Assembly (NCBI GenBank): GCA_022763425.1
Contig: JALEGD010000001.1
Coordinates: forward strand, 1,130,572 to 1,194,571
Source of the DNA: Pelagibacteraceae bacterium
Lineage (GTDB): Bacteria; Pseudomonadota; Alphaproteobacteria; Pelagibacterales; Pelagibacteraceae
Direction: 5' to 3'
Length of the DNA: 64,000 nt
Shown: positions 821 to 21,287 of the stretch, one piece after another
Position numbering within the stretch: the first letter of the stretch is position 1
Layout of the letters: every line of letters begins with the position of its first letter
Made by a program: the position numbers and the translations under genes
Notes under the pieces: generated by a model
The model's input: only the letters and a program-made list of their open reading frames with translations
Told to the model about the DNA's origin: nothing
Databases searched by the model: none

Positions 821-882
821 GCTATTTAAACTTAATATAATTTAATTATAATAATTTTTTTAACCATAAATTTTTTTTAGTA

Positions 883-2022: not shown

Positions 2023-2027
2023 ATTTT

Positions 2028-2999: not shown

Positions 3000-3339
3000 T
3001 AAAGTGATTCTTTAATCTATAATATATAATAAAGCCTAATAAATAGTATGATAATTTTAGAAAATTTATGTTGTATAAAGGACCAATATTCAATTTCATC
3101 AAAAGTAATAATAAAGAACTTATAAAAAGAAAAATAATTGAAATAATTAAACTTTTATAAAAAATCATTTTAGTAATTTTTTTAAAAACATATTCATTGA
3201 TATTTTTTTGACGTATACATTTTAAAAAACAAATAAAAACCCTTTGATAATCAAAAAATTTTTTTTTTATTTGTACAAAGTTTAAAAATTCAATAAAAAC
3301 AATATTTAATATAATTATTTCGATAATTATCTTGATCAA
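2986..3339 (-). CDS. Small membrane protein of unknown function
   Basis: No family recognised. The 117 residues contain an N-terminal hydrophobic helix (about residues 2-20), a basic Cys-containing loop, and one or two further hydrophobic segments around residues 60-85 and 92-108, giving two or three membrane spans. The gene overlaps the start of the sulfotransferase gene by 14 bp on the same strand, an arrangement common for translationally coupled genes, which argues that it is real. Base composition is as A/T-rich as its neighbours. It could be an accessory or anchoring protein for the sulfotransferase, but this rests only on position. Confidence 0.5.
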   Translation of the reverse strand: MIKIIIEIIILNIVFIEFLNFVQIKKKFFDYQRVFICFLKCIRQKNINEYVFKKITKMIFYKSLIISIIFLFISSLLLLLMKLNIGPLYNINFLKLSYYLLGFIIYYRLKNHFNAKI

Positions 3340-3424
3340 ATTGTTAAGATCCTATTTTTTTATTTTTTTTTTTCTATTTAAAAATTTTTTTATTGGAAAA
3401 TAAAATATAGAAAAAATAGCTGCA

Positions 3425-5452
3425 ATGATAGCAATGAGTACATCACCACAAAAAATAGATGAAATTCAAACACTGAGGGCATTTTCCATAATATCTATTA
3501 TTCTATACCATTCAGATATTTATATTTTTAATAAAGATCTCTTTAGAGCTGGATTTCTAGGAGTTGATATATTTTTGGTCATATCTGGTTACTTAATATT
3601 CAAAAGTCTTGATACAGAAAATATTACTAAAAACTTTTGGATAAGCTTAAAGAACTTTTATTTTAAAAGAGTCAAACGAAATTTACCATTATTAATTGTT
3701 GTTATTTTTTTTACCAATTTTTTTTCTATTTATTTACTAAGTTTTTAAGACTATTTAAAATTTTATAAATCAATTAATAGTGCATTATTTTTTTATTCGA
3801 ACTGGTTTTTTGAAATAAACAATACAGTTTACGGTTCAGAAGACGCATCTCTAAAGCCATTAATACATCTATGGTCTTTATCAGTAGAAATGCAGATATA
3901 TGCATTGTTTCCTTTTATTATTTATTTTTGCAGATATTTAAATGAAAAAAATATTCTAATAGGACTTTTATTATTTTTTTTTATAAGCTTATTGTACTCT
4001 GAATACTCATCAAGATTAAATCAATCTTCAAACTATTACAGCTCAATTTCAAGATTATGGGAATTTTTGAGCGGTTCAATTTTAGCCTTTTTGACGGGTA
4101 AAAATAAATTAAAGTTTAATAACACGTATTCAAATTTGTTAATAATTTTTGGATTCTCCTTATTATTTTTTTCATTAATTTTTTTTAATGATAAATTTAG
4201 ACATCCCTCGTTTATTTCAATGATACCTATATTTGGTTCAGTAATTATCATTCTTGGATTGCAAAATTTTAAGCATACTTTATTAAGCAAAATATTAAAT
4301 CTTAAACCAATAATTCTAATAGGAAACATTTCTTATTCACTATTTCTGTGGCATTGGATAATTTTCACTTTCCTTAGATTGAACCTTGTCCAGTTTAATA
4401 CAATTAAAATATTTCCAATTGTAATGCTTATTATTTTTTTATTATCTTTATTTACTTTTTATTTAGTTGAAAAACCTTTTTGGAAAAATAATAAAAAAAG
4501 GTTTATAAATTATATAATTATTTTTTGTTTTTTATTTTTAAATCTGAAAGTACATTTAATATATAATCAATTTGTTAAACCCAAAGAAACAGCTCTCAAT
4601 CTAAACTCTGCACCTTGGGATGATTTAAAAAATGAAAAAAATGAAATTTGTTATTCTAAACAAAATAATTTCTGTACTTTTCAAAAAGAGAATAATAAAA
4701 AAATTTTTATAGTTGGTGACAGTATATTAGGTACTTTGCAGAGTGGTTTGGTAAAAAGATTAAAAGCAGAAGATTACTCTGTAACTATAATGACAAGTAA
4801 TGACTGTTTTTATGCTCCAAATTTCAATTATATTTATTTGAACACAAATAAAACACACCCGAAATGTTCACACAAGTATCAGCAAACTAGACAAGAAATT
4901 TTAAAAAAACAGGAAAAAGCTATTATTATTTTGGGTGGAAATTTACCTGTATACTTATCAAATAAATTTTATTTTAAAAATAACAAAAACAACGAAAACA
5001 AAACTTATGACAAAAGGTTTGTAAATGTTAATAATAAGAAATTTTATAATGATGTTCAAACGTCTATAAGAGAGCTATCCAATAAGAACTATGTCATTCT
5101 GTTATATCCAGTAATTGAACCTGGTTACAATGTTCCAAGATATATTGAGTCAAAATTAAGTAAATTTTCTAGTAAAGAAGAAATGTACCAACTATCTTTA
5201 AAATCCATAGAAAAAGAGAAAAAAATATCACAAAGAATGGCACACAGTAAAAACTTTTTTGATGGTATAAAAGGTAAAAATATCTTTAGAGTTTACCCGC
5301 AAAAAATAATATGTAAAAATTCAAAATGTAGTTTTTTTAATAAAGACAATATATATTACATTGACGAAGCTCATCCATCAAAAATTTACGCAAATAAGAT
5401 AAATGATAAAATATTAGAGAAAATTTTTAAAATTTTTAACAAATCCAATTAA
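3425..5452 (+). pseudogene. Acyltransferase-3 / SGNH fusion (OafA-like) interrupted by one in-frame stop
   Basis: O-acetyltransferase of surface polysaccharide: a polytopic acyltransferase-3 domain moves an acyl group across the inner membrane and a fused periplasmic SGNH domain is thought to place it on the glycan. The N-terminus (EIQTLRAFSIISIILYHSD, GVDIFLVISGYLI) reads normally from 3425 until TAA at 3746-3748. The same frame then continues with no indel through 3749-3889, where the family hallmark HLWSLSVEMQIY appears, and on to 5452. The C-terminal SGNH part shows FIVGDSILG (block I) and DEAHPS (block V). The whole would be about 675 residues, normal for OafA-type fusions. The downstream part could restart at the ATG at 3890, but that piece lacks the catalytic N-terminal helices. 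Nonsense mutation, readthrough or sequencing error are all possible. Confidence 0.85.
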
Positions 5453-5469
5453 TATTGTGTACTTTTCTC

Positions 5470-7488
5470 TCAATTAGATAAATTTAAACTTTCAGCCAAA
5501 TCTTTTGTTGCAAGTTCAACTTTTTGATTATCAATATCACTCTCACACTTATAAAGATATGCTCCACTCCTATGACCATACCAAATGACTTCTTGCATCC
5601 ACTTTTCCCAATTATCGACTTTAATATCGGATCTATTTATACAAACTGTATTTGATTTGGGGCTAAAATCTATGTTTTTTTCGCCTCTTACAAGTTTTTT
5701 ATAGATATTCAAAATATCGTAATTCAATTTAATTTCTATATCTTTATCTATAAAAGGTTGCCTCATAAGATTTTGATTTAACGTAATTGCATCGTTAATT
5801 ATCGGTTTAAATTCATTCTTTACAAAGTCATTTAGTACAGAATTGGCTTCATCATAAAATTGTTTTAATTCATTTGATTTAGATATCTCAATATAAGCAT
5901 ATTCACCAGGTGGCCAATAAATATCTAGCCAACCTTCCCTATAAATAAATTCAGATTTACCTTCGGTTATTTTAATTGAGTGGTCATAAAATATTTTTGA
6001 GATCTTTGATAAAATTTTCTTATCATTAACTCCCATAAAATACTCAAACATAGATCTAAAGCTTTTTTTCTCGAGATGATGACAAATCAGCATTGGAATT
6101 TGAAGTATCTTATTAAAATATAAAAATTCAGCCATTGACGCATATGATCTCATTTTAATCCAATCTTCTCTTGGTAGAGTAGATGTTTCAACAACTAATA
6201 ATTGCTCTTCTTTCACTCCATCTGCAGGTGTTTCATCTAAAGATCCATGCACGTTAACAATAGGGGCTCCAACAGTCTTAATTTTATACTTTTCCTTATA
6301 ATCTGCTGAATTCATTTCTGCATTCGGTAAAATTGACAGATTATTAAATTGTATTCTATTGTGCTGACCAGAGGCAATAACATCTGAAACACCTCCAGCA
6401 AAATCATCATAGCTGTCACCAGGTAGGGCTAAAATAAATTCTGTATATGTCGGTATATTATCTTTGGCAAACATTCTTTGTAAAGCCGCATAATCTTCAA
6501 TTGATACATTATCCCTTTTGATGGCTTCAAGAGTGTGTGGATTTACTGATTGCATTGCAAGCGTTACACCTTTACTTAGTCCAGTTTCTGCGAGTAACTT
6601 TTGAACTTTATAAGCTCTCTCTCTTGCATTTTTTGTGTTTTGAACTGATAATACTTTAGGGTATCCATATTTTTCTTTATTTTCTGCAGCTCTTTTCGCA
6701 ATATCATAATCTCTTGGTAAAATTCCAAAATTTGCATCACAACAAAAAATAAACTCAACTTTATTTTTTGAAAACCAATCTAATTCTTGATAAATTCTAT
6801 CTAGGTGCATTCTAGTAACTTTGCTAGCAGTTGCGGAACCCCAATCACAAAAAGCGCAAGAAAAAGGACATCCTCTATTGGTCTCCCAACTTGCAAGCCA
6901 TCTTTCGTTTGGATTTTCTTTAATTAATCCGTCAAAAACACCAGTTAGATAAGGAGACGGTACGTTCTCAAAATCTCTCATCCTTGGTAAATTTTTATTA
7001 TTCCTGTACTTACCATGTTTATCAATCCAACTAATATTTGGGACCTCATCAAAATTTTTACTAGGATAAATTTCTAACAGATTAAGTATAGTTCGTTCTC
7101 CCTCTTGATGAACAATCACATCAATAAAATCATTGGATCTTAAAAATTCCTCGGCATTTCCTGAAACGTTATCAGGAACGCTTGGTCCTCCATAAATTAA
7201 ATATATGTCTGGATTTATTTTTCTTAGCTCTTTTCCTATAGCAAGAGAAATATTAATATTCCAAACATACGTACTCAATAATACTACATCTTGATCTTTT
7301 AATTTATCTACGCACTCATGTAATAACTCTCTCTTATAAATTGGATTTTGAAAATTATACTTTGACGGGTCTTTTGCATTATGCTTGATAAAGCTCTGCA
7401 AAATCCCTACAGAATATGGTAAATAATACTGGCCTGAAAAACCATTGTTTATTTGTGTTGAACCTATATTAACTACTTTACTACTCAT
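5470..7488 (-). CDS. Cobalamin-binding-domain radical SAM protein
   Basis: Class B-type radical SAM enzyme. The N-terminal 150 residues form a Rossmann-like B12-binding domain (VVLLSTYVWN, IYLIYGGPSVPDN, VIVHQEGERTI). A radical SAM core follows, with the iron-sulfur cluster motif CxxxCxxC at Cys207, Cys211 and Cys214 (RGCPFSCAFCDWG). A later segment (TEFILALPGDSYDDF) matches the SAM-binding strand region of this class. Such proteins methylate or rearrange unreactive carbons and often sit in polysaccharide or antibiotic clusters. The C-terminal 230 residues are not recognised. It diverges by 23 bp from the operon starting at 7512. If the B12 domain is functional, the cell needs cobalamin, which matches the B12 uptake locus at 15.9-18.5 kb. 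Confidence 0.85.
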   Translation of the reverse strand: MSSKVVNIGSTQINNGFSGQYYLPYSVGILQSFIKHNAKDPSKYNFQNPIYKRELLHECVDKLKDQDVVLLSTYVWNINISLAIGKELRKINPDIYLIYGGPSVPDNVSGNAEEFLRSNDFIDVIVHQEGERTILNLLEIYPSKNFDEVPNISWIDKHGKYRNNKNLPRMRDFENVPSPYLTGVFDGLIKENPNERWLASWETNRGCPFSCAFCDWGSATASKVTRMHLDRIYQELDWFSKNKVEFIFCCDANFGILPRDYDIAKRAAENKEKYGYPKVLSVQNTKNARERAYKVQKLLAETGLSKGVTLAMQSVNPHTLEAIKRDNVSIEDYAALQRMFAKDNIPTYTEFILALPGDSYDDFAGGVSDVIASGQHNRIQFNNLSILPNAEMNSADYKEKYKIKTVGAPIVNVHGSLDETPADGVKEEQLLVVETSTLPREDWIKMRSYASMAEFLYFNKILQIPMLICHHLEKKSFRSMFEYFMGVNDKKILSKISKIFYDHSIKITEGKSEFIYREGWLDIYWPPGEYAYIEISKSNELKQFYDEANSVLNDFVKNEFKPIINDAITLNQNLMRQPFIDKDIEIKLNYDILNIYKKLVRGEKNIDFSPKSNTVCINRSDIKVDNWEKWMQEVIWYGHRSGAYLYKCESDIDNQKVELATKDLAESLNLSN

Positions 7489-7511
7489 AATTGAAAATAT
7501 TAAACTAAAAT

Positions 7512-8246
7512 ATGTCTACTATAATAATTACAGGTGCAAGTAAAGGAATTGGTCTGGCGGTTGCTCTAAACGCCGCTAGAAAAGGATATGATATCTGCAT
7601 AACTTACAAAAGTGATAAAAAAGCAGCTGATAAAGCAGTAAAAAAGTTGAAAAAAATTACACAAAAAGTCGTTTGTGTGAAAGCAGATATATCTAATATA
7701 CGAGATATTAAAAAAATTTATCAAAAAATAAATAAATTATCCCGACTTGAAATTTTAGTAAATAATGCAGCAACGAATGTATTTAGAACTCCATTTGAAG
7801 ATATAAAATACAAAGATTTAAAAAAAATCTTTGAAATAAATTATTTTGGTTATTTTTACTGCTCACAACTAGCGTTCAAAATTTTTAAAAAACAAAATAA
7901 AAATTTAAACAAATCAATCATCAACTTGTCTTCTCAGGCTGCAAATTTTGGTGGCAATATGTTTACACATTACGCTCCTACAAAGTCTGCCTTAAATACT
8001 CTTACCAAAGGCTTATCAAGAGAAGCTGCCAAGTATAACATCAGAGTTAATGCAATAAGCCCTGGTATCATCATGACTGAAGGTATGTTAAAAGTAAATA
8101 AGTCTAATCTTGAAAATATAAAAAAAACTATTCCTCTCAATAAAATTGGAACACCTGAAGAAGTCGCTGAAGCAATAATGCAAGTTGCAGAATTGAATTC
8201 AAGTTATATTACAGGCTCGATAATTCCCGTAGGTGGTGGACGTTAA
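7512..8246 (+). CDS. Short-chain dehydrogenase/reductase (FabG-like)
   Basis: NAD(P)-dependent short-chain oxidoreductase, cytoplasmic. All classical SDR signatures are present: cofactor loop TGASKGIG (7-14), the NNAA motif (about 84-87), catalytic Ser in LSSQ (about 140), and catalytic YxxxK at Tyr154/Lys158, followed by the PG of NAISPGI. Length of 244 aa is typical of classical SDRs. FabG is the closest general resemblance, but its place as first gene of a glycan operon suggests a sugar or acyl-chain precursor reductase rather than the housekeeping 3-oxoacyl-ACP reductase. Its stop codon shares one base with the next start. Confidence 0.85.
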   Translation: MSTIIITGASKGIGLAVALNAARKGYDICITYKSDKKAADKAVKKLKKITQKVVCVKADISNIRDIKKIYQKINKLSRLEILVNNAATNVFRTPFEDIKYKDLKKIFEINYFGYFYCSQLAFKIFKKQNKNLNKSIINLSSQAANFGGNMFTHYAPTKSALNTLTKGLSREAAKYNIRVNAISPGIIMTEGMLKVNKSNLENIKKTIPLNKIGTPEEVAEAIMQVAELNSSYITGSIIPVGGGR

Positions 8247-9991
8247 TGATCAAAAATATTATTTTATTTAATCAAAACCTCAATAAATTACTCACCAATG
8301 ATCAAAAAAAAGGGTTAAATACTTTTAGATTAATTTCTTTTATAAATGCACTAGTAGAGTTAATTGGTATCTCAGTAATAGTTCCATTTATATTTTGTAT
8401 TTTAAATGTAGAAAAAATTTTTAATTATCCAATAATCGTAAATATTAGTAATGTATTTGGAATATCTAGTGAATTTAATTTTTTACTTATATTAGGTATC
8501 ATATGTATTATTATAACATTTCTAATTGGTATAATTTCTTTTTACGCAAACTTTAAATCTATAGAATTTAGTCAAAAACTTTCGATAGATTTTAAATCCA
8601 GATTATTCAAATATTATATAAATAAAAATTACTTTTATCATCTTACAAAAAATTCAAACGAATTAATCAATAATTTTTTAGGTGAGACAGCAAGAATTTC
8701 AGAAGGAATTATTTTACCATTAATTACTTTACAACTAAAATTAATTATAATTTTATTAATTTTTTTTAGTTTATTGTATATTGAACCGATACCAACAATT
8801 TTAATTTTTTTTTTAATAACTTTTTTTTATCTAATAGTTTACAAAAATATTAGTAAAAAAATTAGAAGTTTGGGGCTTAAAACAAAAATTTATAATGATC
8901 AAATTGGTAAATATGGATATCCAAGTATTAATGATATTAAAAATACAAAAATTTATGGACTTGAGGAAATGTACTATAGATATATTAAGTACTTTTTCAA
9001 AAAAGATAGCAATATAAGAATAACTATAAATTCTTTAACACTAATTCCAAAACAAATTATAGACTTTTTACTAATATTTGGAGCAATAACCACATTATTA
9101 ATTTTTTTAAAAATTTACGGCAAAATTGATAATCTTTTACCAATTCTTGGTGCTTATATTTATGCTGCCGCTAAAATTATTCCACAAGCTAATAATATCT
9201 ATGCATCATTTTCGAGTATTAAAAATAATCTTCCCGCATATGATAATATTTTTTTAGATCTTGAAAACAGTTTAATTGAACATAAAAATAATATTAAAAA
9301 TTTTTCTTTTAAAAAAAATATTTCTCTAAAAAATATTTCTTTTGGCTATCCAGGTAGAAAAAAAGATCAAAAAAGAAAGGATGTTATTACTAATTTAAAC
9401 TTAGCCATTTCAAATAACAATCACATCGGAATCTTCGGTAAATCAGGAAATGGCAAAAGCACCTTGGCAGATATAATTTCTGGACTTATTAAGCCAGAAA
9501 CAGGGAGTATATTTTTCGATGAAGTTGAAATTAAATCTGAAAGTGATTACTACAATTACAGGAAACAAATATGTTATATATCTCAAGCCCCATTTCTATT
9601 AAATGAAACTTTAGAAAAAAATATCGCATTTCTTGAAAAAAATCCTGATTATGTAAAATTAAAAGATGCAGCAGAATTATCTTGCTGTTCTGATTTTATC
9701 AATACATTGCCAAATAAATTTAAAACACAAGTTACAAATAGATTAAATTTTAGTGGCGGGCAAAGTCAAAGAATATCACTTGCAAGGGCTTTTTATTTAA
9801 ATAGACCAATTTCAATCTTTGATGAATGTACTAGCAGCTTAGATAATGAAACTGAACAAAAGGTAGTAAAAAATATCTTTAATTACTTTAAAAATAAAAC
9901 ACTCATTTTTATATCGCATAAAATAAAAAACTTAGAACGATGTGATGAAATTTATGAATTTACTTCAAAAGGTCTAGTTAAAAATAAATGA
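8246..9991 (+). CDS. ABC exporter, fused membrane and ATPase domains
   Basis: Type IV ABC exporter half-transporter that would dimerise in the inner membrane. About six hydrophobic helices lie in the first 310 residues. The nucleotide-binding domain follows with Walker A GKSGNGKST (about 397-405), the ABC signature LNFSGGQSQR, Walker B SIFDECTSSLD and a switch His (FISHK). It lies between an SDR and a glycosyltransferase, with overlaps of 1 and 4 bp, so it is probably the flippase (PglK/MsbA type) of the lipid-linked oligosaccharide built by this cluster. Start ATG at 8246 is fixed by the 1-bp TAATG overlap. The transported molecule is inferred from context only. Confidence 0.85.
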   Translation: MIKNIILFNQNLNKLLTNDQKKGLNTFRLISFINALVELIGISVIVPFIFCILNVEKIFNYPIIVNISNVFGISSEFNFLLILGIICIIITFLIGIISFYANFKSIEFSQKLSIDFKSRLFKYYINKNYFYHLTKNSNELINNFLGETARISEGIILPLITLQLKLIIILLIFFSLLYIEPIPTILIFFLITFFYLIVYKNISKKIRSLGLKTKIYNDQIGKYGYPSINDIKNTKIYGLEEMYYRYIKYFFKKDSNIRITINSLTLIPKQIIDFLLIFGAITTLLIFLKIYGKIDNLLPILGAYIYAAAKIIPQANNIYASFSSIKNNLPAYDNIFLDLENSLIEHKNNIKNFSFKKNISLKNISFGYPGRKKDQKRKDVITNLNLAISNNNHIGIFGKSGNGKSTLADIISGLIKPETGSIFFDEVEIKSESDYYNYRKQICYISQAPFLLNETLEKNIAFLEKNPDYVKLKDAAELSCCSDFINTLPNKFKTQVTNRLNFSGGQSQRISLARAFYLNRPISIFDECTSSLDNETEQKVVKNIFNYFKNKTLIFISHKIKNLERCDEIYEFTSKGLVKNK

Positions 9992-11064
9992 ATAAAGATT
10001 TAGAAAAACATTTAACAATTATAATAATTACAAAAGATAGATATGATTTTATTAATAGATTATTAGCATATTATAATTTTACAGAACTTAAGTCTAAAAT
10101 TTTGATTGCAGATTCAACAGACTTTGATCATCATAATTTAAATTCGAACTATATTGAAAATTATAAAAATTTAGACATTAACTTTTATCATAGGCCTAAT
10201 ATCAAACCCGAAAATTTACAAAATGAGATGTTGGAAAAAGTAAGGACTAAATACACTATTGTGTGTGCAGATGACGACATCATCATTGATAATTCTATAA
10301 TTAAATGTGTTGATTTTTTGGAAAAAAATAATGACTACATTGCTGTGACAGGTAGGATTCATGGTTTTGCAACTGAGAAAGATCGCGCTAGAGACTGTAA
10401 AATATCAATTTGGAATGAATATAATCAACAAAATATATCTGAGACTAATCCAAACATCAGATTAAAAAATTATCTGAGTTCATATTGGGTGAATTTTTTT
10501 TCTATCGTAAGAACGGACGACTATATTCGTTGTTCAAAGTATGCACATTTGTCAACTTCAGCGGCTATGAGGGGTGAAATAATTCCATGTATGACAAAAG
10601 CTTTACTGGGAAAAACAAAAAAACTAAATCATCTTCATATGTTAAGGCAATTTTTTTTACAAAAAAAACATTATCCTTTAAAATCAGTGCTGGAACATGC
10701 AATTACCAATAATGATTGGAGCAAAGAGATATCTATTTTAAAAACTAACCTTAGACAATCTTTAAAAGAAAATAAATTAGACAGATATGAAGAAAAATTT
10801 AATAAATCTTTTGAATTATCAATGTATTACTACATTAAAAATGAGGTATTAATTTTTAATAAAAAATTTATTTTCGATTACCTATTTTCTAAAATCTTCA
10901 CAAAAGGAAAAATAAAAGCTTTATTAAATATAGTTGTTAAATTTTACCAAAGATTAAAAAAGCTTTCAAAAGGAAAGTTTAATGAAACCGAAAGTTTTAA
11001 TAACTTTAAAAATGATACAAACTTTAAGAATTTCGTAAATTTTTTGGGTTTTATAAAATCATGA
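9988..11064 (+). CDS. GT-A fold glycosyltransferase (TIGR00180-like)
   Basis: Family 2-like glycosyltransferase. The N-terminus reads HLTIIIITKDRYDFINRLL, the start of the GT-A nucleotide-binding fold, followed by an IADST strand and the metal-binding acidic cluster CADDDIII at about residues 93-100, equivalent to the DxD motif. The central part (YWVNFFSIVRTDDY, GEIIPCM) fits the acceptor-binding region. Length is 358 aa with no membrane segment. It starts inside the stop of the ABC exporter gene (4-bp ATGA overlap) and ends in the same way with the next gene, so it is translated as part of the 7512-13228 operon. Sugar donor unknown. Confidence 0.7.
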   Translation: MNKDLEKHLTIIIITKDRYDFINRLLAYYNFTELKSKILIADSTDFDHHNLNSNYIENYKNLDINFYHRPNIKPENLQNEMLEKVRTKYTIVCADDDIIIDNSIIKCVDFLEKNNDYIAVTGRIHGFATEKDRARDCKISIWNEYNQQNISETNPNIRLKNYLSSYWVNFFSIVRTDDYIRCSKYAHLSTSAAMRGEIIPCMTKALLGKTKKLNHLHMLRQFFLQKKHYPLKSVLEHAITNNDWSKEISILKTNLRQSLKENKLDRYEEKFNKSFELSMYYYIKNEVLIFNKKFIFDYLFSKIFTKGKIKALLNIVVKFYQRLKKLSKGKFNETESFNNFKNDTNFKNFVNFLGFIKS

Positions 11065-11918
11065 ATTTTTCAATCATTGATCTAAATAATAAAATCTCTC
11101 CAAATGATTTGGTAGATTTCAGTAAAAAGAATGGATGTCAAATATTTAACTGGGCTAGCGAACATTACAAAGAGATTGATGCTGATATTTATGATAAGAG
11201 TTTTCTTAATAAACTAACTGAATTAAAAAATTTTGTTAAATATAACAAACCAGATTTCTTTTTAGTAATTTCAACCGGTGATAAAATTTTACAAAAGTCG
11301 CTTGACATTCCTCTTGCAAATGAATTTTCGGAAAAAGTAATATTTCTAAGGCATGCTTATGAAATAATTTTGAAGGACAAGTATTCAAAAGAAATTGAAT
11401 TTAATTATCCAATTAATAAAGATCTTAATAGTATATTTAAATGTATTTTTTCAGGTAACTTGCCAAATTTTTTTATACATAGAATAAGTCTCCTAAAGTT
11501 TATTAATACTTTAGAGAAAAAAAACATCACAATCTACCCTGGCATTTTTGATTTGAAAAATTTAATTTCATTTTATGTTTTATATAAAAACAAAAACTTT
11601 TTAATTTCAAAAAAAAAATTTTTTTATTCAAAAATTTATGTAAATAATAAAACATTAATAATATCTAAAAAACTAATTCGACCAATTGAAGAATTAATAA
11701 AAAATCCTTATTGGTCAATATCATTAAAAAATTTTCAGAGTGTTTTTAATTTAAATATTAAAAATTATTACCAATATTTTTTTGACGCTATTATCACTCA
11801 AGAATTTAAGGTGGGACTAAAGAAAAATTTTAAATTGTCAGGATTTGATAAAATTATAATAAACTTTATGTTTAGGTTATATAAATTAAAAAAATTTTAT
11901 TTTTTAAATTTAAAATGA
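11061..11918 (+). CDS. Unrecognised protein of the glycan operon
   Basis: I do not recognise a family. The 285 residues are soluble-looking, rich in Lys, Ile, Phe and Asn, with alternating hydrophobic strands and helices (for example FFLVISTGDKIL, KNITIYPGIFDL). No signal peptide, membrane helix or catalytic motif stands out, and no DxD is seen. It overlaps its upstream and downstream neighbours by 4 bp each, so it is clearly part of the operon. By position a glycosyltransferase or glycan-modifying enzyme is the obvious guess, but nothing in the sequence proves it. Confidence 0.55.
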   Translation: MNFSIIDLNNKISPNDLVDFSKKNGCQIFNWASEHYKEIDADIYDKSFLNKLTELKNFVKYNKPDFFLVISTGDKILQKSLDIPLANEFSEKVIFLRHAYEIILKDKYSKEIEFNYPINKDLNSIFKCIFSGNLPNFFIHRISLLKFINTLEKKNITIYPGIFDLKNLISFYVLYKNKNFLISKKKFFYSKIYVNNKTLIISKKLIRPIEELIKNPYWSISLKNFQSVFNLNIKNYYQYFFDAIITQEFKVGLKKNFKLSGFDKIIINFMFRLYKLKKFYFLNLK

Positions 11919-13228
11919 AAAAAAAAATTTTAATAATTTGGGGTAATACTTATGCATTTCTCAACCTTGATAGACTTATAAAAAAATTATCTAAAAACTA
12001 TAATATTGATGTTTTGATACTAACTGAAAATAATACTGAAATTATTGAAGATTATTGTTTAAATAATAAAAATATCAAAAAATTTAATATTTTAAAATTT
12101 TCTAACCAATTACCTTTTAAGATCATAAAAAACTATTTTGATATAAAAGAATTTTGCAATTCAAGTCCATATAATTTTTGTATTGCTGGTGATGAATGCC
12201 AACTATACTCAAAATATACTTTGAGTTTATTGACAAAAACAAAAAAAATCATTTATTGGACTCACACAAGTTTTTTACTTCAAAATAACCAGGTAATTAA
12301 GTCATATGAGGGCGGAAATTTCGATGATTTTGAAAAACTTTATAATTCCGAAAAAAATCTATATTCAGAAATTAAATTTAAAAAAAGACGTGTATTTTTT
12401 GATAATATATACACTAGGACATCATCAGACACATTGAAAAGATATATAATAAGATTTTTAAAAAATTTTATTATTAAAATATTAAAAAAAATAAATGGAT
12501 TTTTATTAAAGCTAGAGCAAAAGTTTATTTTAACATTTTTATCATCAAAAAAAATAAAACAAAACTTAATAGATCAATTGAGTCAAGTAGGAAGTGGAAA
12601 TGAAGATACATACTTGTTTAATGATCAAATTGATGTTGATATATTTAACGGTATTACTGGAAAAAAGTGTGCTTTTTTAACATCGCATCCTTTGAGTTAC
12701 GCTGAAAATACTAATCTAGATAAAAACACAAAATTAAATGATTGCCTTTATTTTCCAATTTCAATTTATCCATACAGTCTAACAGATGATAGATTTTTAA
12801 GCATAATAAGTAATTCAATTTTAAAATTAAAAGATTCGCTAAATTTTGAGAAAATAATTGTAAGAAAACACCCGCTACAAAAGCTGGATGAGTTAGATAA
12901 TTTTAAATCTGAATTACAAAAAAGAATTAATTTACAAGTATTGTTAGAGATTGGTGACAACCCAATACAAAACGAAGCAAAAAAATATAAATATTGTTTT
13001 TCAACTTTATCTGCAGCTATAAAAGATATTAGAGCAAACTGTGATACAATTAAGATATTTTTAAATGAAGAGATATCAAAGGATATCGCGCCAAAACCAA
13101 AATTATTTTATAACGAAGATCAAGGCATTTATTGGATAGATAAGAACTATGATTTTGATCAAGAAGTTTTAGTAAAACAAAAGTTTTTTAATTACAAAAG
13201 TATCGATATAGAAGAATATCTAGTTTAA
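11915..13228 (+). CDS. Unrecognised protein, possible GT-B sialyl/polysialyltransferase-like
   Basis: No confident family. The N-terminus (KKKILIIWGNTYAFLNLDRLIKKL) looks like the first strand and helix of a Rossmann domain. In the C-terminal half an IVRKHPLQKLDEL segment is followed, some 40 residues later, by FSTLSAAIKDI. A His-Pro motif followed by a Ser-rich motif resembles the donor-binding signature of bacterial GT-B sialyl- and polysialyltransferases (GT52/GT38). The match is weak and by eye. The gene closes the operon begun at 7512 and overlaps the convergent dioxygenase gene by 9 bp at their 3' ends. Length is 437 aa. Confidence 0.5.
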   Translation: MKKKILIIWGNTYAFLNLDRLIKKLSKNYNIDVLILTENNTEIIEDYCLNNKNIKKFNILKFSNQLPFKIIKNYFDIKEFCNSSPYNFCIAGDECQLYSKYTLSLLTKTKKIIYWTHTSFLLQNNQVIKSYEGGNFDDFEKLYNSEKNLYSEIKFKKRRVFFDNIYTRTSSDTLKRYIIRFLKNFIIKILKKINGFLLKLEQKFILTFLSSKKIKQNLIDQLSQVGSGNEDTYLFNDQIDVDIFNGITGKKCAFLTSHPLSYAENTNLDKNTKLNDCLYFPISIYPYSLTDDRFLSIISNSILKLKDSLNFEKIIVRKHPLQKLDELDNFKSELQKRINLQVLLEIGDNPIQNEAKKYKYCFSTLSAAIKDIRANCDTIKIFLNEEISKDIAPKPKLFYNEDQGIYWIDKNYDFDQEVLVKQKFFNYKSIDIEEYLV

Positions 13229-14017
13229 AAATGTTATAGACCTTTTAGATTGGAAACCTGGATCAAATTTCTCTCCCATTGCCATATAGCCCAAAGACAA
13301 CAAAGGTCTTCCATCATTTGATAAATTATCTGAAGACTCATGCGCGCATAAACCATGCATAAATAAAACATCGCCCTTCTCTAATTCACATTCAACGGGA
13401 TCCATAGGTAATTTTTCAGTAATAGTGTTTCCTGGTTTTCCATCGCTCTCTCTGTAACTAACTCTTTCTTCCGCTTCTAAAACACCAAGTTTATGACTTC
13501 CTGGATAAAGTCTTAAACCACCATTTTTTTGAGACATATAATTAAATGTTAAATTTACTGTAACGTACATTCCATTTTCATTGCCCGTATAATTATTATC
13601 TTGGTGAACTTGCCAAGCCTGCTTACAATATTTAGTTCCAGGCTCTTTAAAAAATAAATTCGTTAACAATCCAGCCATCTGTCTTCCATATAACCAACTT
13701 AGATATTGCACTATTTCTGGGTTTTTTAAAAACTCATTAAAATGATTAGAAATCTGTTTCAACTTTCTGTAATACATCACTTTTTCATGCAGGCTCCCCA
13801 TTTGAGATATTTTTTCAGCTGACTGCGCGACTAGAAAATCCTCTTTATGTAAGTGCATGATTTGACCAAAATCTTTATCCGCGATCGATCGTGCCAACAC
13901 ATTACTATATTCACATAGTTCTGGGTCAACAAGATCTTTTATGATTATGAAACCTTTGTCCCAATACTCATCAAAATTGTTCTTTGTATATATTCCAGTA
14001 TCGTTGAATTTTCGCAT
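13220..14017 (-). CDS. PhyH-family 2-oxoglutarate/Fe(II) dioxygenase
   Basis: Non-haem iron oxygenase of the phytanoyl-CoA dioxygenase family, which hydroxylates small molecules, lipids or sugar intermediates using 2-oxoglutarate and O2. The metal triad is visible as His138 and Asp140 (WQVHQDNN) and His226 (MHGLCAHESSDN), and Arg237 (GRPLLSL) would hold the 2-oxoglutarate carboxylate. GGLRLYPGSHKLG between them is a family signature. Length of 265 aa is normal. It is a single gene on the minus strand between the glycan operon and the divergent epimerase gene at 14066. Its codon usage looks slightly less A-rich than the operon next to it. Substrate unknown. Confidence 0.8.
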   Translation of the reverse strand: MRKFNDTGIYTKNNFDEYWDKGFIIIKDLVDPELCEYSNVLARSIADKDFGQIMHLHKEDFLVAQSAEKISQMGSLHEKVMYYRKLKQISNHFNEFLKNPEIVQYLSWLYGRQMAGLLTNLFFKEPGTKYCKQAWQVHQDNNYTGNENGMYVTVNLTFNYMSQKNGGLRLYPGSHKLGVLEAEERVSYRESDGKPGNTITEKLPMDPVECELEKGDVLFMHGLCAHESSDNLSNDGRPLLSLGYMAMGEKFDPGFQSKRSITFLN

Positions 14018-14065
14018 ATTAGGTTATTAATATATTTTTGTATTAAATCAAGATATAATCAAAAA

Positions 14066-15004
14066 ATGAAAAAAATAATAGTCTTTGGAGGCTCAGGATT
14101 TATTGGTAAGAATCTTATTAATTATTTTTCAAAAAGAGGCTTTCGTATTTTAGCAACATATACGAATGCAAAACCAAAAATAAACTTTAAAAATACAAAG
14201 TGGATAAAACTAAATCTTATAAAAAAACAAAACTTAAAAAGTATTTGTCAAAATGCCAGTTACGCATTTATTTGTTCAGCGATAACTTCTGGCGCAAAAA
14301 ACATAGTATCGCGACCTGAAATTTTTGTAAGTGATAATGCAATAATCAATTCTAATATTATTAGTGAAATATATAAATATAAAATCAAGCAAATATTTTT
14401 TTTTAGCTGCTCTGTTATGTATCCTCACTCAAATAAACCAAAAAAAGAACACGAATTCAATTTAGAAAAATGTTATCCAAAATATTATGGTGGTGCTGCG
14501 ATGAAAATTTTTACTGAAAATTTATGTAAATTTTATTCTTCAATTTCAACTTCAAAATTTACCGTTTTAAGACATACAAATACATATGGTCCTTTTGATA
14601 AATTTAATAAAAAAGAAGGCCATTTCTTTTGTTCCACAATCTCAAAGGTTCTAAAAGCAAAAGATAAGATTGTCATGTGGGGAAGTGGAAAGGAGAAAAG
14701 AAATTTTATTCATATTGATGATGTTATAAATGCGATCAATATTTTGATAAAAAGACAAAAAAAAAATTTCGAGATTGTGAATGTTGGTGTTAATAAATCA
14801 GAAAGTATAAATCATATTGTAAATAAGATTATAAAAATTTCAAAAAGAAAGTTAAAAGTTGAAAAAGATCTTAAAGCACCTAATTTAAACATTGATATAC
14901 ATGTTAATTCAAGCAAACTTAAATCATATGGATGGTCACCTAAAATATCAATTGATCAAGGTATAAAAAAAACGATTGATTGGTATAAGAAAAATTATTA
15001 TTAA
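14066..15004 (+). CDS. NAD-dependent epimerase/dehydratase with atypical active-site motif
   Basis: Extended SDR acting on nucleotide sugars. The cofactor loop GGSGFIGKNLI is at residues 8-18. The C-terminal substrate half has LRHTNTYGP, a GSGKEKRNFIHIDDV segment typical of this family, and the final WSPKISIDQGIKKTIDWYK. The usual catalytic YxxxK is not in register: the region reads PKYYGGAAMKIFTEN, so the Tyr residues lie 6 and 7 positions before the Lys instead of 4, and Gly occupies the expected Tyr position. A catalytic Ser remains in SCSVMYP. Length of 312 aa is normal. It is followed 5 bp later by the oxygenase-like gene, suggesting cotranscription. Confidence 0.8.
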   Translation: MKKIIVFGGSGFIGKNLINYFSKRGFRILATYTNAKPKINFKNTKWIKLNLIKKQNLKSICQNASYAFICSAITSGAKNIVSRPEIFVSDNAIINSNIISEIYKYKIKQIFFFSCSVMYPHSNKPKKEHEFNLEKCYPKYYGGAAMKIFTENLCKFYSSISTSKFTVLRHTNTYGPFDKFNKKEGHFFCSTISKVLKAKDKIVMWGSGKEKRNFIHIDDVINAINILIKRQKKNFEIVNVGVNKSESINHIVNKIIKISKRKLKVEKDLKAPNLNIDIHVNSSKLKSYGWSPKISIDQGIKKTIDWYKKNYY

Positions 15005-15009
15005 AATAT

Positions 15010-15888
15010 ATGAATTTTTCAGAAAAAAAATTAAATCAAAGATCAAAAATTTATAAAAAAATTAGTCCAACTTTTGATAAAAAACATGGAATAATTGTTT
15101 CCAAGAAAATAAACACTAAAGATACAAAGCCACTAATAAAATCAATTGAAAATTTTCTTCATGACTCATTAACAAAATATTACAAGAAAAAATTTATTAA
15201 AAAAAATTTTATTCAAAAACATATTAATGAAATTCTGGGATTGCCCAATGTGACACCTGGGGGGCAGCTTAGAGGAACAAGAGAAACAATGAAAACTTAT
15301 AATAATGTTCATAAAAATTTTGACACATTGCTAAAAAAAATTGACCTATATAATAATTTGGAGAGATTAGCTTGGTTCTCAGTTAGAATAAAAAAAGGAA
15401 TAGACTCAAAAGAATATAAAAAGCACACATATGCAACTTCAAAAAAACATAGTGATATGTGGGCAGGTGAACGAAACCATGCAAAAATAGTTCTGATGTT
15501 AATAGGTGATACAAAAAAGAATACTGTAAGTTTTTATAAACCTTTAAAATTTACAAAAAAAACTTTTAACTTTGGAAAGAAATCATTTGATGAAGGATTG
15601 CAGACAATCAAGCAAACGCAATATCTTGGGAAGGCAAACAAGAATGAAATATGTTTATTTGATCAATATTGTCTACACCAAACTTATTTGGCTAAAGGAG
15701 CAAAAACCAGAATTTCTATCGATATGAGAGTTGATATAAAAGGGTCAAGATTAAACGACAATAGGCCCAGTGTAAAAGAAGATGAAAGAATGGTTTTGTA
15801 TTCTGCTAAGCGTTGGTCAAAATTAAATTACAAAAATATCAAATATCACAATAAGTCATTTAGAGAGCTGTCTAAATTATATAAGTAG
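15010..15888 (+). CDS. Putative 2OG-Fe(II) oxygenase-like protein
   Basis: Not a confident family match, but the layout resembles a cupin-fold iron oxygenase: HxD at His147/Asp149 (KKHSDMWAGE), a third candidate ligand His223 (QYCLHQTY) and Arg234 (KTRISIDMRV) eleven residues later, the position used for 2-oxoglutarate. Spacing between HxD and the distal His (about 75 residues) fits. There is no signal peptide and the N-terminal 60 residues are very Lys-rich. It lies 5 bp after the epimerase gene, so it probably acts on the same sugar product. It is the last gene before the cobalamin riboswitch. Confidence 0.5.
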   Translation: MNFSEKKLNQRSKIYKKISPTFDKKHGIIVSKKINTKDTKPLIKSIENFLHDSLTKYYKKKFIKKNFIQKHINEILGLPNVTPGGQLRGTRETMKTYNNVHKNFDTLLKKIDLYNNLERLAWFSVRIKKGIDSKEYKKHTYATSKKHSDMWAGERNHAKIVLMLIGDTKKNTVSFYKPLKFTKKTFNFGKKSFDEGLQTIKQTQYLGKANKNEICLFDQYCLHQTYLAKGAKTRISIDMRVDIKGSRLNDNRPSVKEDERMVLYSAKRWSKLNYKNIKYHNKSFRELSKLYK

Positions 15889-15929
15889 TATTTTCTTGAC
15901 TTAAATTAAAATTTATTGAAAAATATTTT

Positions 15930-16025
15930 CATACTGCGCGCAAGGTGGGAAAAAATGTGAAAATCATTTACTGCTCCTGCAACGGTTATAACGTATTGTT
16001 TGAGTCCGAATGCCACCCAGTAGAG
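15930..16025 (+). promoter_or_regulatory. Cobalamin riboswitch aptamer
   Basis: The conserved elements of the B12 riboswitch appear in order: AAGGTGGGAA (about 15942-15951), the loop segment with TGAAAAT between AAATG and CATTT, CTGCTCCTGCAACGG, GAGTCCGAA, and the B12 box GCCACC at 16012-16017. GGTGG near the start pairs with CCACC at the end, and the outer TACTG (15932-15936) pairs with CAGTA (16018-16022) to close P1. A possible -35 element TTGACT lies at 15896-15901. Binding of adenosylcobalamin would be expected to shut down the downstream receptor gene. Recognition is by eye from the consensus. Confidence 0.9.
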
Positions 16026-16035
16026 ACCGCTGTTA

Positions 16036-16100
16036 AATTGTAGTCAGGTGATCTACAATTAGCTTAAAAAATAAGTTTCAGAGGCAAAATTGTAAAGGAG
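16036..16100 (+). promoter_or_regulatory. Riboswitch expression platform controlling the Shine-Dalgarno
   Basis: A perfect 8-bp hairpin, AATTGTAG (16036-16043) with CTACAATT (16053-16060), follows the aptamer. The sequence AATTGTA recurs at 16088-16094, directly before the strong AAAGGAG (16094-16100) that lies 6 bp before the receptor ATG. The 3' arm of the hairpin can therefore pair with either copy, giving two exclusive structures, one of which approaches the ribosome binding site. No U-tract terminator is seen, so control is probably translational. This is inference from base pairing only. Confidence 0.55.
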
Positions 16101-16106
16101 AAATAA

Positions 16107-17981
16107 ATGAAAATTATTCATTTATTAATGGTTATATTTTTGTTTGAAATATTTTATGATAATTCTGTATTATCTAAACAAATAAATCAAAATTGTGAGT
16201 GGGCAAATTCAAATAGCCCGTGTATCAGAATTAAAGCACCAATTTCTAACTCTTCAGAATTTACTTATGATAGCATTAAAAAAAAGATAATTTTAAAAAA
16301 TGATATAGAAAGCTTAAATGCCAAAGATCTAGTAGACGTACTTGAAACAATTCCTGAAATAAGTGTCACACGATCAGGCCCAGCTGGACAACAAACATCA
16401 ATTTTTTTTAGGGGTGCAAATTCTAATCATACTCTCGTAATGATAAATGGCGTTCCAATAAATGATCAATCAACAACACAAGGATTGCACGACTTCGGTG
16501 TTGATTTCATACAAGTAATACAACAAATTGAAATTTATCCAGGTTCTAGCGCTAGTCAATTTGGATCAAATGCAATTGGCGGTGCAATAAATTTAATTAT
16601 GACTGGAGATTACAAAGATAAATTTAATTTCAATGTGGATAAGGACAAAAATTTTGATGTTCTGCTAAATAAAAATTTTAACCGCAAAAATGAAGTTTTA
16701 AATTTTAAATTTGGCTCGATATATAATGATACCATTTCAGCAAGAGCAGGTACAAATGAAGATAGTGATACATTAAAAAATTTTAGTAGCAATATTAACT
16801 ACCAAAAATGGATTGGAAACAATTTACAAATATTCAACAATACATATTTAAGACAAACAATTGCGGAATATGACAATTCAAGCTCCAATCAAACAGGATA
16901 TGAAGGTGATAATAAAATGCTAAATACACAGTTTGGCATAAAAGACTCAAATAAAAATAAAGATCGTAGCTTAAAAGTTTATTACACTAGGTATGATAGA
17001 GAATATGATGAAAGAGGCGTAATTGATAACTATTATAGTAATGTTCTTGGAACGAAATATGACTATTCAAATTCATATAAAAATAAATTTTCTATAGGTT
17101 ACGGTCTGGATTATAAATATGATTGGGGTGAATTTAATAATAGAGGTTCTTATTCAGCTTCAACAAAAGGTAATTCTGATAACTTCGCAACATATGCAAA
17201 TGTAGGAAGTAAGTTTGGTGAATACAATTATTCAATATTTTTAAGAAATGACAAACATAAGCAAACTGGAAATAACATGTCATACAAAGTAGATTTAAAT
17301 AGAAATTTATTTGAAAATATTAAAATTGGAATTAATAGAAACACCGGTTTACGAAATCCAACATTGTATGAACTATTTGGTACCGATAGCTATGGTTATA
17401 GTGGTAATAGAAATTTAAAACCAGAGAAAAGTGTTACTAACGAATTTTATTCAAATATTGATTTTAATAAAAATAGCTTTTTATCTGTATCACTATTTAA
17501 AAGCGCAATATCAAATAATATCGAATATGTTAGTAATAAATATATCAACGATAATGATGATGTTGATTTAAATCAATATGGTACCGATATAGCTTATAAT
17601 TTAAACAGCAAAGGGAGTAATTTGAAAGTTTTCTTTACGCAAATAAACTCACAAGATGAGATAAAAAGAAAACAATTAAGAAGACCGGAGTATAGCTATG
17701 GATTAAATTTTACAAAAAAAATGAACTCAAAAATATTAGGACTTTATGATCTTAATTTAAATTATAAACACTACGGAAAACATCTGGACACACACTCTTC
17801 GACGTTTAATCGTATTGAGATGGATAGTACTGATATTGTAAATATTGGACTATCAAAAAAAGTTAAACACAGAAAATTCTACTTCAAAATCTCTAATCTT
17901 TTAAAAGAAACTTATTTAAGACCTCACGGATATAAACAACCAGGGCGGCACTTGAAGTTTGGTTTTACAATTTCAAGATAA
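16107..17981 (+). CDS. btuB: TonB-dependent vitamin B12 receptor, BtuB-like
   Basis: Outer-membrane receptor that takes up cobalamin using TonB energy. An N-terminal hydrophobic signal peptide (about residues 1-23) is followed by a plug domain (VDVLETIPEISVTRSGPAGQQTS, FFRGANSNHTLVMINGVPIND, GSSASQFGSNAIGGAINL) and a beta-barrel with alternating Tyr/Asn-rich strands. GNRNLKPEKS and the final GYKQPGRHLKF resemble the BtuB barrel end. The last residue is Arg instead of the usual terminal Phe. The 624-aa length matches BtuB. A cobalamin riboswitch precedes it, giving independent support for B12 as ligand. No tonB, exbBD or btuCDF is present in the window. Confidence 0.88.
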   Translation: MKIIHLLMVIFLFEIFYDNSVLSKQINQNCEWANSNSPCIRIKAPISNSSEFTYDSIKKKIILKNDIESLNAKDLVDVLETIPEISVTRSGPAGQQTSIFFRGANSNHTLVMINGVPINDQSTTQGLHDFGVDFIQVIQQIEIYPGSSASQFGSNAIGGAINLIMTGDYKDKFNFNVDKDKNFDVLLNKNFNRKNEVLNFKFGSIYNDTISARAGTNEDSDTLKNFSSNINYQKWIGNNLQIFNNTYLRQTIAEYDNSSSNQTGYEGDNKMLNTQFGIKDSNKNKDRSLKVYYTRYDREYDERGVIDNYYSNVLGTKYDYSNSYKNKFSIGYGLDYKYDWGEFNNRGSYSASTKGNSDNFATYANVGSKFGEYNYSIFLRNDKHKQTGNNMSYKVDLNRNLFENIKIGINRNTGLRNPTLYELFGTDSYGYSGNRNLKPEKSVTNEFYSNIDFNKNSFLSVSLFKSAISNNIEYVSNKYINDNDDVDLNQYGTDIAYNLNSKGSNLKVFFTQINSQDEIKRKQLRRPEYSYGLNFTKKMNSKILGLYDLNLNYKHYGKHLDTHSSTFNRIEMDSTDIVNIGLSKKVKHRKFYFKISNLLKETYLRPHGYKQPGRHLKFGFTISR

Positions 17982-18018
17982 AGCTAGATAATAAAAAAAA
18001 TTAAGTTAAAATTAAAAA

Positions 18019-18510
18019 ATGTCTAAATATAAAATATTTATTGCATCCTTAATTTTGTTAGCATGTAGTAGGTTTTTTCCACATCCGCCAAATTTTACAA
18101 ATTTAATTGCTTTAAGTTTTTATGTACCTTTATTATTCGGTCGTAAATATATACCTTTAGTTTTTTTCTGTTTTGTTGTTACAGATTTATTTATTGGTTT
18201 TCATAAAACTATATTTTTTACTTGGATTTCAGTCATTTTAATTGGTTACACATCAATGACGTTTCAAGGAATGTTAAAAAATAGAGTGCAAGGAATTTTT
18301 TTAAGCTTGTTTATTTTTTATATTCTATCCAATTTTGGGGTATGGTTATCGGGAATGTATACATATAATTTAACTGGTTTAATAAATTGCTACGTTATGG
18401 CTATACCGTTTTTTGGTAATACAATTGTCTCAACAGTTTTATACAGTTTAGTTATAGAAATGCTCATGAGATATTTTAGATTGACTAACTTTAAAAAATA
18501 CCAAACTTAA
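18019..18510 (+). CDS. Small polytopic membrane protein, DUF6580/ECF S-component-like
   Basis: Probable inner-membrane partner in B12 or corrinoid uptake. The 163 residues hold about five hydrophobic helices. The early segment SRFFPHPPNFTNLIALSFY, containing PHPPNFT, is what I recall as the hallmark of the DUF6580 putative transport family, which resembles S components of ECF vitamin transporters. It lies 37 bp after btuB on the same strand, downstream of the same cobalamin riboswitch. No ECF ATPase or T component is nearby, so energising subunits would have to be elsewhere. Its stop codon is only 26 bp from the end of the convergent 23S gene. Confidence 0.65.
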   Translation: MSKYKIFIASLILLACSRFFPHPPNFTNLIALSFYVPLLFGRKYIPLVFFCFVVTDLFIGFHKTIFFTWISVILIGYTSMTFQGMLKNRVQGIFLSLFIFYILSNFGVWLSGMYTYNLTGLINCYVMAIPFFGNTIVSTVLYSLVIEMLMRYFRLTNFKKYQT

Positions 18511-18518
18511 TTTTTTTT

Positions 18519-18536
18519 AAAATTTTTTTCAGTGCA

Positions 18537-18546
<10 letters not shown>
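18519..18546 (-). other. 3' half of 23S precursor processing stem
   Basis: This stretch is complementary to 21280-21307 on the other side of the 23S gene over 28 positions with two mismatches, counting the mature helix-1 bases. It extends helix 1 beyond the mature ends and is the expected RNase III-type processing duplex. The end of the stem on the minus strand is an A-tract followed by a short U-tract, but there is no separate terminator hairpin before the convergent gene at 18510. Confidence 0.75.

Positions 18547-21279
<2,733 letters not shown>

Positions 21280-21287
<8 letters not shown>

Follow-up and report, generated by a model that had tools for sequence, protein, structure and literature searches.

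A proposed island-borne vitamin B12 uptake cassette and its probable link to radical SAM methyltransferases in a Pelagibacteraceae genome

SAR11 is among Earth's most abundant bacterial groups. We analysed a 64,000-nucleotide stretch (the window) of a SAR11 genome, that of a Pelagibacteraceae bacterium (GCA_022763425.1, contig JALEGD010000001.1), and compared it with 147 genomes of the family. Next to the 23S rRNA gene the window carries an AdoCbl-II (Cbl-II) riboswitch, followed by genes for a BtuB-like TonB-dependent receptor and for a small membrane protein of the DUF6580 family, and the same genomic island holds a gene for a TokK-like, cobalamin-dependent radical S-adenosylmethionine (SAM) methyltransferase (Table 1). 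We propose that the riboswitch, receptor and DUF6580 genes make up a B12 uptake cassette that would serve island-borne enzymes of the latter kind.

The rRNA operon of this genome is split. Its 5S gene (G000:C1:1103243-1103356) lies 45.8 kb to the left of the 23S end (G000:C1 1149108), and the intervening sequence (G000:C1:1103357-1149107) is hypervariable region 2 (HVR2), defined as the island lying between the 5S and 23S genes of SAR11 (PMC2217521); an rRNA operon divided in this way has been named as a mark of bona fide Pelagibacterales (PMC7318151). The B12 locus is therefore the 23S edge of HVR2, with only 26 bases between the end of the DUF6580 gene and the end of the 23S gene. An earlier reading made from the letters alone (the sequence-only reading) had placed it at the edge of a variable region beside the rRNA genes of a SAR11-like genome, and that placement was right. 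Within the window the island carries glycosyltransferase, sulfotransferase, acyltransferase, epimerase and ABC exporter genes. It resembles HVR2 of Candidatus Pelagibacter ubique HTCC1062 (PMC2217521) in its borders, its surface-glycan genes and its length (about 46 kb here, 48 kb there), but additionally carries the putative B12 uptake cassette and B12 enzyme; HTCC1062 was reported to be without a TonB-dependent transporter (PMC3400609).

The riboswitch aptamer scored 71.9 bits (E 6e-16, Rfam cmscan) over the full RF01689 model (1-81), whose gathering score is 36.5, and this was the single match in the whole 1.21-Mb single-contig genome. The full set of cobalamin riboswitch elements recognised by the sequence-only reading was correct for the compact Cbl-II class; the class is AdoCbl-II and not the class-I Cobalamin family (RF00174) that had been expected. 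Behind the aptamer, a CAGNGGC-type strand occurs 50-57 nt downstream in 27/27 leaders and has two alternative partners that compete for nucleotides common to both, namely the CCGCUG strand behind the aptamer (helix Px) or the Shine-Dalgarno (SD) and start region (helix Pseq). The kissing loop between L5 and L13, CCUG/CAGG in the window, covaries to CUCG/CGAG in G006, G029, G046 and G008. When duplex energies of each leader's own strands were compared with those of strands swapped between leaders, 0 of 20000 swaps were as strong for the kissing loop, an outcome that holds even though our script chose the wrong L5 strand in two leaders, those of the window and L052. The corresponding counts were 28/20000 for the P13 hairpin and 7/20000 for Pseq (17/20000 after dereplication), while Px is conserved, yet its covariation was not significant (450/5000). 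The window keeps the kissing loop and P13.

These patterns suggest how the switch of the relatives would work. Ligand binding together with the kissing loop would disfavour Px and free the CAGUGGC strand, which would then pair with the ribosome-binding and start region and shut translation. The relatives' switch probably turns translation off on ligand binding, and the ligand would be cobalamin. Repression has likewise been described as the mode of env8 and of the E. coli btuB leader (PMC10653944; PMC11838749). At the position that we take to be A68 of env8, in an env8 sequence whose numbering fits G19, A20 and A68 as named in PMC11838749, the window has A and 23 of 26 relatives have G. The SAR11 leaders share with env8 and other AdoCbl-II (AdoCbl-variant) riboswitches the Rfam family, a marine setting, the L5-L13 kissing loop and probably translational control (PMC2864571, PMC11838749), but carry the CCGCUG...CAGNGGC element and the start-region helix as conserved extras, of which the window lacks the latter. 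A pairing of L5 CUCCU with the SD was also seen in the window and was dismissed as too likely by chance.

The receptor has Plug (PF07715, 68.3 bits) and barrel (TonB_dep_Rec, PF00593, 46.2 bits) domains, both above cut-off. Among NCBIfam models it matches the BtuB family TIGR01779 best, at 162.9 bits and short of the equivalog cut-off of 599.7, and its best match by sequence in the PDB is E. coli BtuB (2.5e-24), followed by the colicin I receptor (2.7e-11). The twelve best fold matches of its predicted model (predicted local distance difference test score, pLDDT, 78) were all BtuB, that of E. coli first. The protein is filed as BtuB-like only, as the sequence-only reading had called it, and not as a BtuB equivalog. 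Like E. coli BtuB it has a plug and a barrel and would be under riboswitch control; it differs in a divergent N terminus, in an identity of only 17-18% in the fold alignment, and in that no TonB was found in its genome. Two receptor lineages, about 22% identical, stand behind the AdoCbl-II switch in SAR11.

The DUF6580 protein matched PF20221 at 92.6 bits (cut-off 27), and its AlphaFold model, built with 29 sequences, is all-helical (pLDDT 87.5). In VIA-align the best matches to this model were BtuM with cyanocobalamin (Z 14.8) and with hydroxocobalamin (Z 14.5), followed by energy-coupling factor (ECF)-type components for folate, thiamin, biotin, riboflavin, pantothenate and metals (Z 13.9 to 9.8). 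The 20 best rows (Z 9.8-14.8) were all BtuM or ECF-type components, and the following row scored 6.9. Because helical bundles may reach Z of about 13 through a common arrangement, fold support here lies in the ranking, the coverage (152/163 residues) and the gap. Plain Foldseek returned S components only at E >0.2, and VIA-align then separated them clearly. No match was obtained for DUF6580 in the PHROGs search or, with its alignment, in the PDB sequence search, and a full-text search of one literature library found no mention of it. The predicted model has the S-component fold of ECF transporters, in agreement with the earlier description of a small polytopic protein resembling a vitamin S component.

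BtuM of Thiobacillus denitrificans is a solitary S-component-like B12 transporter (PMC6072759; PDB 8c7p, 8ovv) and is the closest fold to DUF6580. Both are small helical membrane proteins encoded beside a btuB or btuB-like gene, and both organisms are without EcfT (that of BtuM without EcfT or BtuCDF). The two differ in Pfam family, in sequence (about 10-11% identity in the structural alignment) and in the cobalt-binding Cys80 (L3) of BtuM, which has no invariant counterpart: residues invariant among the 29 DUF6580 sequences include R18, P21, H22, P23, N25, F26, D56, G60, N105, G107 and W109, and no cysteine is invariant or nearly so. We note that DUF6580 may act like BtuM but do not file it as BtuM. 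Searches of the window's genome, in which the sequence-only reading had suggested looking for ECF genes, found no CbiQ/EcfT match and no FecCD-type permease. FecCD matches in other family genomes were weak (17-31 bits, mostly in open reading frames (ORFs) of about 270 aa) and are probably of the ABC-3 type. On the lack of a CbiQ match an ECF module is rejected for this genome, and a solitary mode is proposed for DUF6580. As no FecCD, EcfT or TonB domain was found, DUF6580 is the best candidate for the inner membrane. By analogy with the proposal for BtuM, it probably carries cobalamin through the inner membrane alone, in line with the earlier suggestion of a new inner-membrane B12 route.

Two side observations may be added here. 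An unusual fusion in two g7 genomes (L116 = G038:C9; G006:C2:118715-119245) places a CbiQ/EcfT-like domain within ORFs roughly 1,020 aa long. In two genomes a 130-aa PterinBD-DUF4346 protein is encoded directly 3′ of DUF6580 (L049:7264-7656, L053:5342-5734); it is possibly another B12- or folate-linked part of methyl transfer.

A probable consumer of the imported cofactor, missed by the sequence-only reading even though its riboswitch-controlled B12 uptake stood up, lies in the island itself. The sole match to the B12-binding domain PF02310 in the genome (G000:C1:1137649-1137873) falls inside the radical SAM ORF. The best NCBIfam model of this ORF is the KedN5 family NF033712 (248.8 bits, not reaching the cut-off of 700), and its best solved relatives are TokK (4.9e-91) and CysS (1.8e-53), to which the N-terminal two thirds align (residues 15-489). 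It keeps the CxxxCxxC motif (CPFSCAFC, 207-214) and a tryptophan, W76, aligned to the W76 that TokK places under cobalt (PMC13331322). Unlike TokK and CysS, the SAR11 enzyme sits in a surface-glycan island and not in an antibiotic cluster.

Cobalamin-dependent radical SAM methyltransferases use methylcobalamin and SAM, and for this reason no adenosyltransferase is needed. The searches fit such a consumer: a PduO-type adenosyltransferase (PF01923) was found in 1/147 genomes and not in the window's own, and a CobA/BtuR-type enzyme in 0/147. The one PduO-type gene lies on a short contig (L227, G048:C8:1-5406) that also bears B12-binding fragments, and that lineage may make adenosylcobalamin. Sub-cut-off matches to NrdJ were set aside, being class I ribonucleotide reductases in the one case checked.

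Across the family, DUF6580 and B12-binding proteins tend to occur together. Counting B12-binding proteins at PF02310 >=28 bits, 32/34 genomes with DUF6580 were positive against 18/113 of the others (Fisher p 3e-17); of the two negative DUF6580 genomes, G140 encodes a radical SAM protein whose B12 domain is weak. Among near-complete genomes the figures were 3/4 with DUF6580 and 4/49 without (p 0.0056). On 13 long contigs the nearest B12-binding gene lay between 81 bases and 24 kb away from DUF6580 (combined p 2.7e-7). Read by eye and Fisher-tested, a radical SAM ORF lay within about 6 kb of DUF6580 at 26/36 SAR11 loci against 1/40 other loci, four RF00174-type SAR11 loci having been set aside and counted in neither group. 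The radical SAM enzymes themselves vary among genomes, that of the sister genome G009 belonging to another subfamily, and the common factor is therefore the cofactor.

The cassette is sporadic in the family, present in about a quarter of the genomes sampled. The AdoCbl-II switch occurs in 27/147 genomes, DUF6580 in 34/147 and both in 25; at two further DUF6580 loci the switch is cut off by a contig end. A receptor ORF begins within 57-119 nt 3′ of the switch in 27/27 cases. DUF6580 is spread over 9/14 genera, 2/8 genomes of the window's own genus and 4/53 near-complete genomes. These counts do not bear out the sequence-only reading's trait acquired by and specific to one lineage, and they agree with its expectation that the locus would not be found in most SAR11 genomes. 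The closest DUF6580 relatives among named records are Pelagibacteraceae, and the window's protein falls among other Pelagibacterales sequences, so that it looks exchanged within HVR2 rather than recently acquired from outside. No TonB_C domain was found in the 147 genomes, although 34 carry DUF6580 and 27 a riboswitch-led TonB-dependent receptor. In G110 (L032:5793-10046) the receptor frame extends to 1,417 aa, into the 23S gene, with no domain past residue 568; it is overlapped by an 838-aa antisense ORF without a Pfam match, and DUF6580 is missing.

Beyond the family, at least 556 DUF6580 loci were found in 84,980 species' genomes, including SAR116, SAR86, Omnitrophota, Ignavibacteria and Bacteroidota, and among the 80 loci retained, most have a BtuB-like ORF adjoining DUF6580. 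Riboswitch scans of 12 loci from outside SAR11 placed RF00174 (Cobalamin) directly before the receptor and DUF6580 in seven. RF00174 lies between DUF6580 and the receptor at L200, its match is weak and distant at L208, and the gammaproteobacterial L223 has AdoCbl-II. SAR116-type loci (L176, L177, L181, L183) show a conserved context in the order RF00174 switch, receptor, DUF6580, tRNA. Pelagibacteraceae have a second cassette type (L194, L196, L198, L199) with DUF6580, a receptor of 751-759 aa and no radical SAM gene within 6 kb; the three of these scanned (L194, L196, L198) carry RF00174. As RF00174 and AdoCbl-II both lead the receptor-DUF6580 pair, the B12 link does not rest on one riboswitch class.

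Taken together, these data favour an island-borne B12 uptake cassette that serves island-borne cobalamin-dependent radical SAM methyltransferases, to which we give a probability of about 0.72. The switch would sense cobalamin and control the receptor together with DUF6580 downstream of it. Most likely, the cobalamin brought in feeds the radical SAM methyltransferases of the island, here the TokK-like enzyme. The riboswitch class and the kind of receptor are known; new, and predicted, are the role of DUF6580 in moving B12 across the inner membrane and the link between cassette and enzyme.

Several observations weigh against this proposal, and we set them beside the explanations that they would favour. 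The cassette could be real and its B12 meant for another use, such as tRNA queuosine through QueG, an unrecognised corrinoid enzyme or cobamide scavenging, with the radical SAM genes being common HVR2 cargo. The 18 genomes with B12-binding proteins and without DUF6580 suit such a use, and seven DUF6580-less genomes, three of them near-complete, have contig stretches with radical SAM genes and no cassette nearby. Two further points count against the main proposal: the B12-binding domain of the TokK-like ORF scores 25.0 bits, below Pfam's 32.1, and the association figures are inflated by shared ancestry, relatedness being uncontrolled, and by partial genomes that lack HVR2. A general need for B12 predicts the cassette in most genomes, however, and not in a minority; the association persists in the near-complete genomes, and the genes lie close together. 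In the window's genome, MetH, methylmalonyl-CoA mutase and class II ribonucleotide reductase are ruled out as consumers by the single PF02310 match and by a reductase of class I, QueG not having been searched for. Another use of the B12 is accordingly unlikely in our view. It is more improbable still that receptor and DUF6580 import a different ligand, a corrinoid precursor or another cofactor, with the riboswitch merely reporting cellular cobalamin. The distance of the receptor from the BtuB equivalog cut-off and the folate, thiamin and biotin S components of nearly equal Z would allow this, but BtuB is the best match of the receptor in sequence and fold, BtuM ranks first for DUF6580, and two classes of cobalamin riboswitch lead the pair in separate lineages.

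The remaining objections concern the state of the cassette in this genome, where it might be decaying, with the output of its switch lost and its receptor unpowered. Pseq, the start-sequestering helix of the relatives, was not found in the window (-1.4 kcal/mol), and the receptor start codon sits within an AU hairpin; of the switchable ribosome binding site proposed by the sequence-only reading, the covariation in relatives holds and the helix in the window does not. The tonB gene that it had suggested looking for did not appear either: TonB_C (PF03544) matched in 0/147 genomes, with E. coli, Caulobacter and Bacteroides as positive controls, and PF13103 had no match in the window's genome, although short divergent TonB domains can escape both models. 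Nevertheless, no ORF is disrupted and the aptamer scores strongly. Across 595 aa the receptor shares 85% identity with its counterpart in a same-genus relative, and a TonB-box-like segment (read by eye) is retained close to the N terminus in both receptor lineages. Since cassette-bearing genomes all lack TonB_C, its absence does not point to decay in this one, and we regard decay as barely probable. The Tol system, or a TonB that the models miss, may energise the receptor. PF13103 matches in nine genomes of one other genus were rejected as TonB; the one looked at, the G005 protein, sits between tolR-like and tolB-like genes (names assigned by eye) and is TolA.

An island-borne B12 cassette with ties to island-borne radical SAM methyltransferases describes the locus better than a single-lineage trait does. 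SAR11 is reported to have neither MetE nor MetH methionine synthase (PMC12478193), and a field study in which SAR11 responded to added B12 left B12 regulation of SAR11 btuB open (PMC9296465). With a concrete switch, receptor, candidate inner-membrane carrier and candidate consumer, the locus opens that question to experiment. It also points to a possible function of the DUF6580 membrane family and, if our proposal is true, would link marine B12 supply to the exchange of HVR2 surface genes and give a supposedly B12-free group a swappable B12 habit. As a tentative extension, for which we see less than even odds, B12 dependence might be gained and lost as a unit made up of HVR2 cobalamin-dependent radical SAM methyltransferases acting on surface glycans or lipids, a BtuB-like receptor powered without TonB (for example by Tol) and DUF6580, the last being a new B12 transporter family of many phyla.

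Table 1. Features of the B12 locus and its island, in window coordinates
Feature	Position	Strand	Remarks
AdoCbl-II (Cbl-II) riboswitch aptamer	15931-16023	+	RF01689; alignment with 26 relatives
Aptamer L5	~15973-15980 (CCUG 15976-15979)	+	AdoCbl-II alignment
Aptamer J6/3 CCGAAUGCC	around 16006-16014	+	AdoCbl-II alignment
Expression platform	16024-16106	+	Layout kept across 27 leaders
Px strand CCGCUG	16027-16032	+	Expression platform
P13 hairpin	16036-16060	+	L13 CAGG at 16045-16048
CAGAGGC strand	16079-16085	+	Expression platform
SD AAAGGAG	16094-16100	+	Precedes receptor start
BtuB-like TonB-dependent receptor, 624 aa	16107-17981	+	Plug and barrel domains
DUF6580 membrane protein, 163 aa, proposed inner-membrane B12 carrier	18019-18510	+	PF20221
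TokK-like cobalamin-dependent radical SAM methyltransferase, 672 aa, proposed B12 consumer	5470-7488	-	Radical_SAM and B12-binding
Right-hand part of HVR2	1-18536		5S at L137:12672-12785, 23S end at 18537
23S rRNA, right border of HVR2	18537-21287	-	RF02541, 2683.6 bits

Two further features of the island lie to the left of the cassette. An acyltransferase-SGNH gene is apparently split into ORFs 3425-3748 (107 aa) and 3890-5452 (520 aa), which match consecutive parts of the Acyl_transf_3 profile, perhaps through a frameshift or as a pseudogene. Just left of the riboswitch are a PhyH-type dioxygenase gene (13220-14017) and an ORF weakly resembling 2OG-Fe(II) oxygenases (15010-15888; 15.2 bits, below cut-off).

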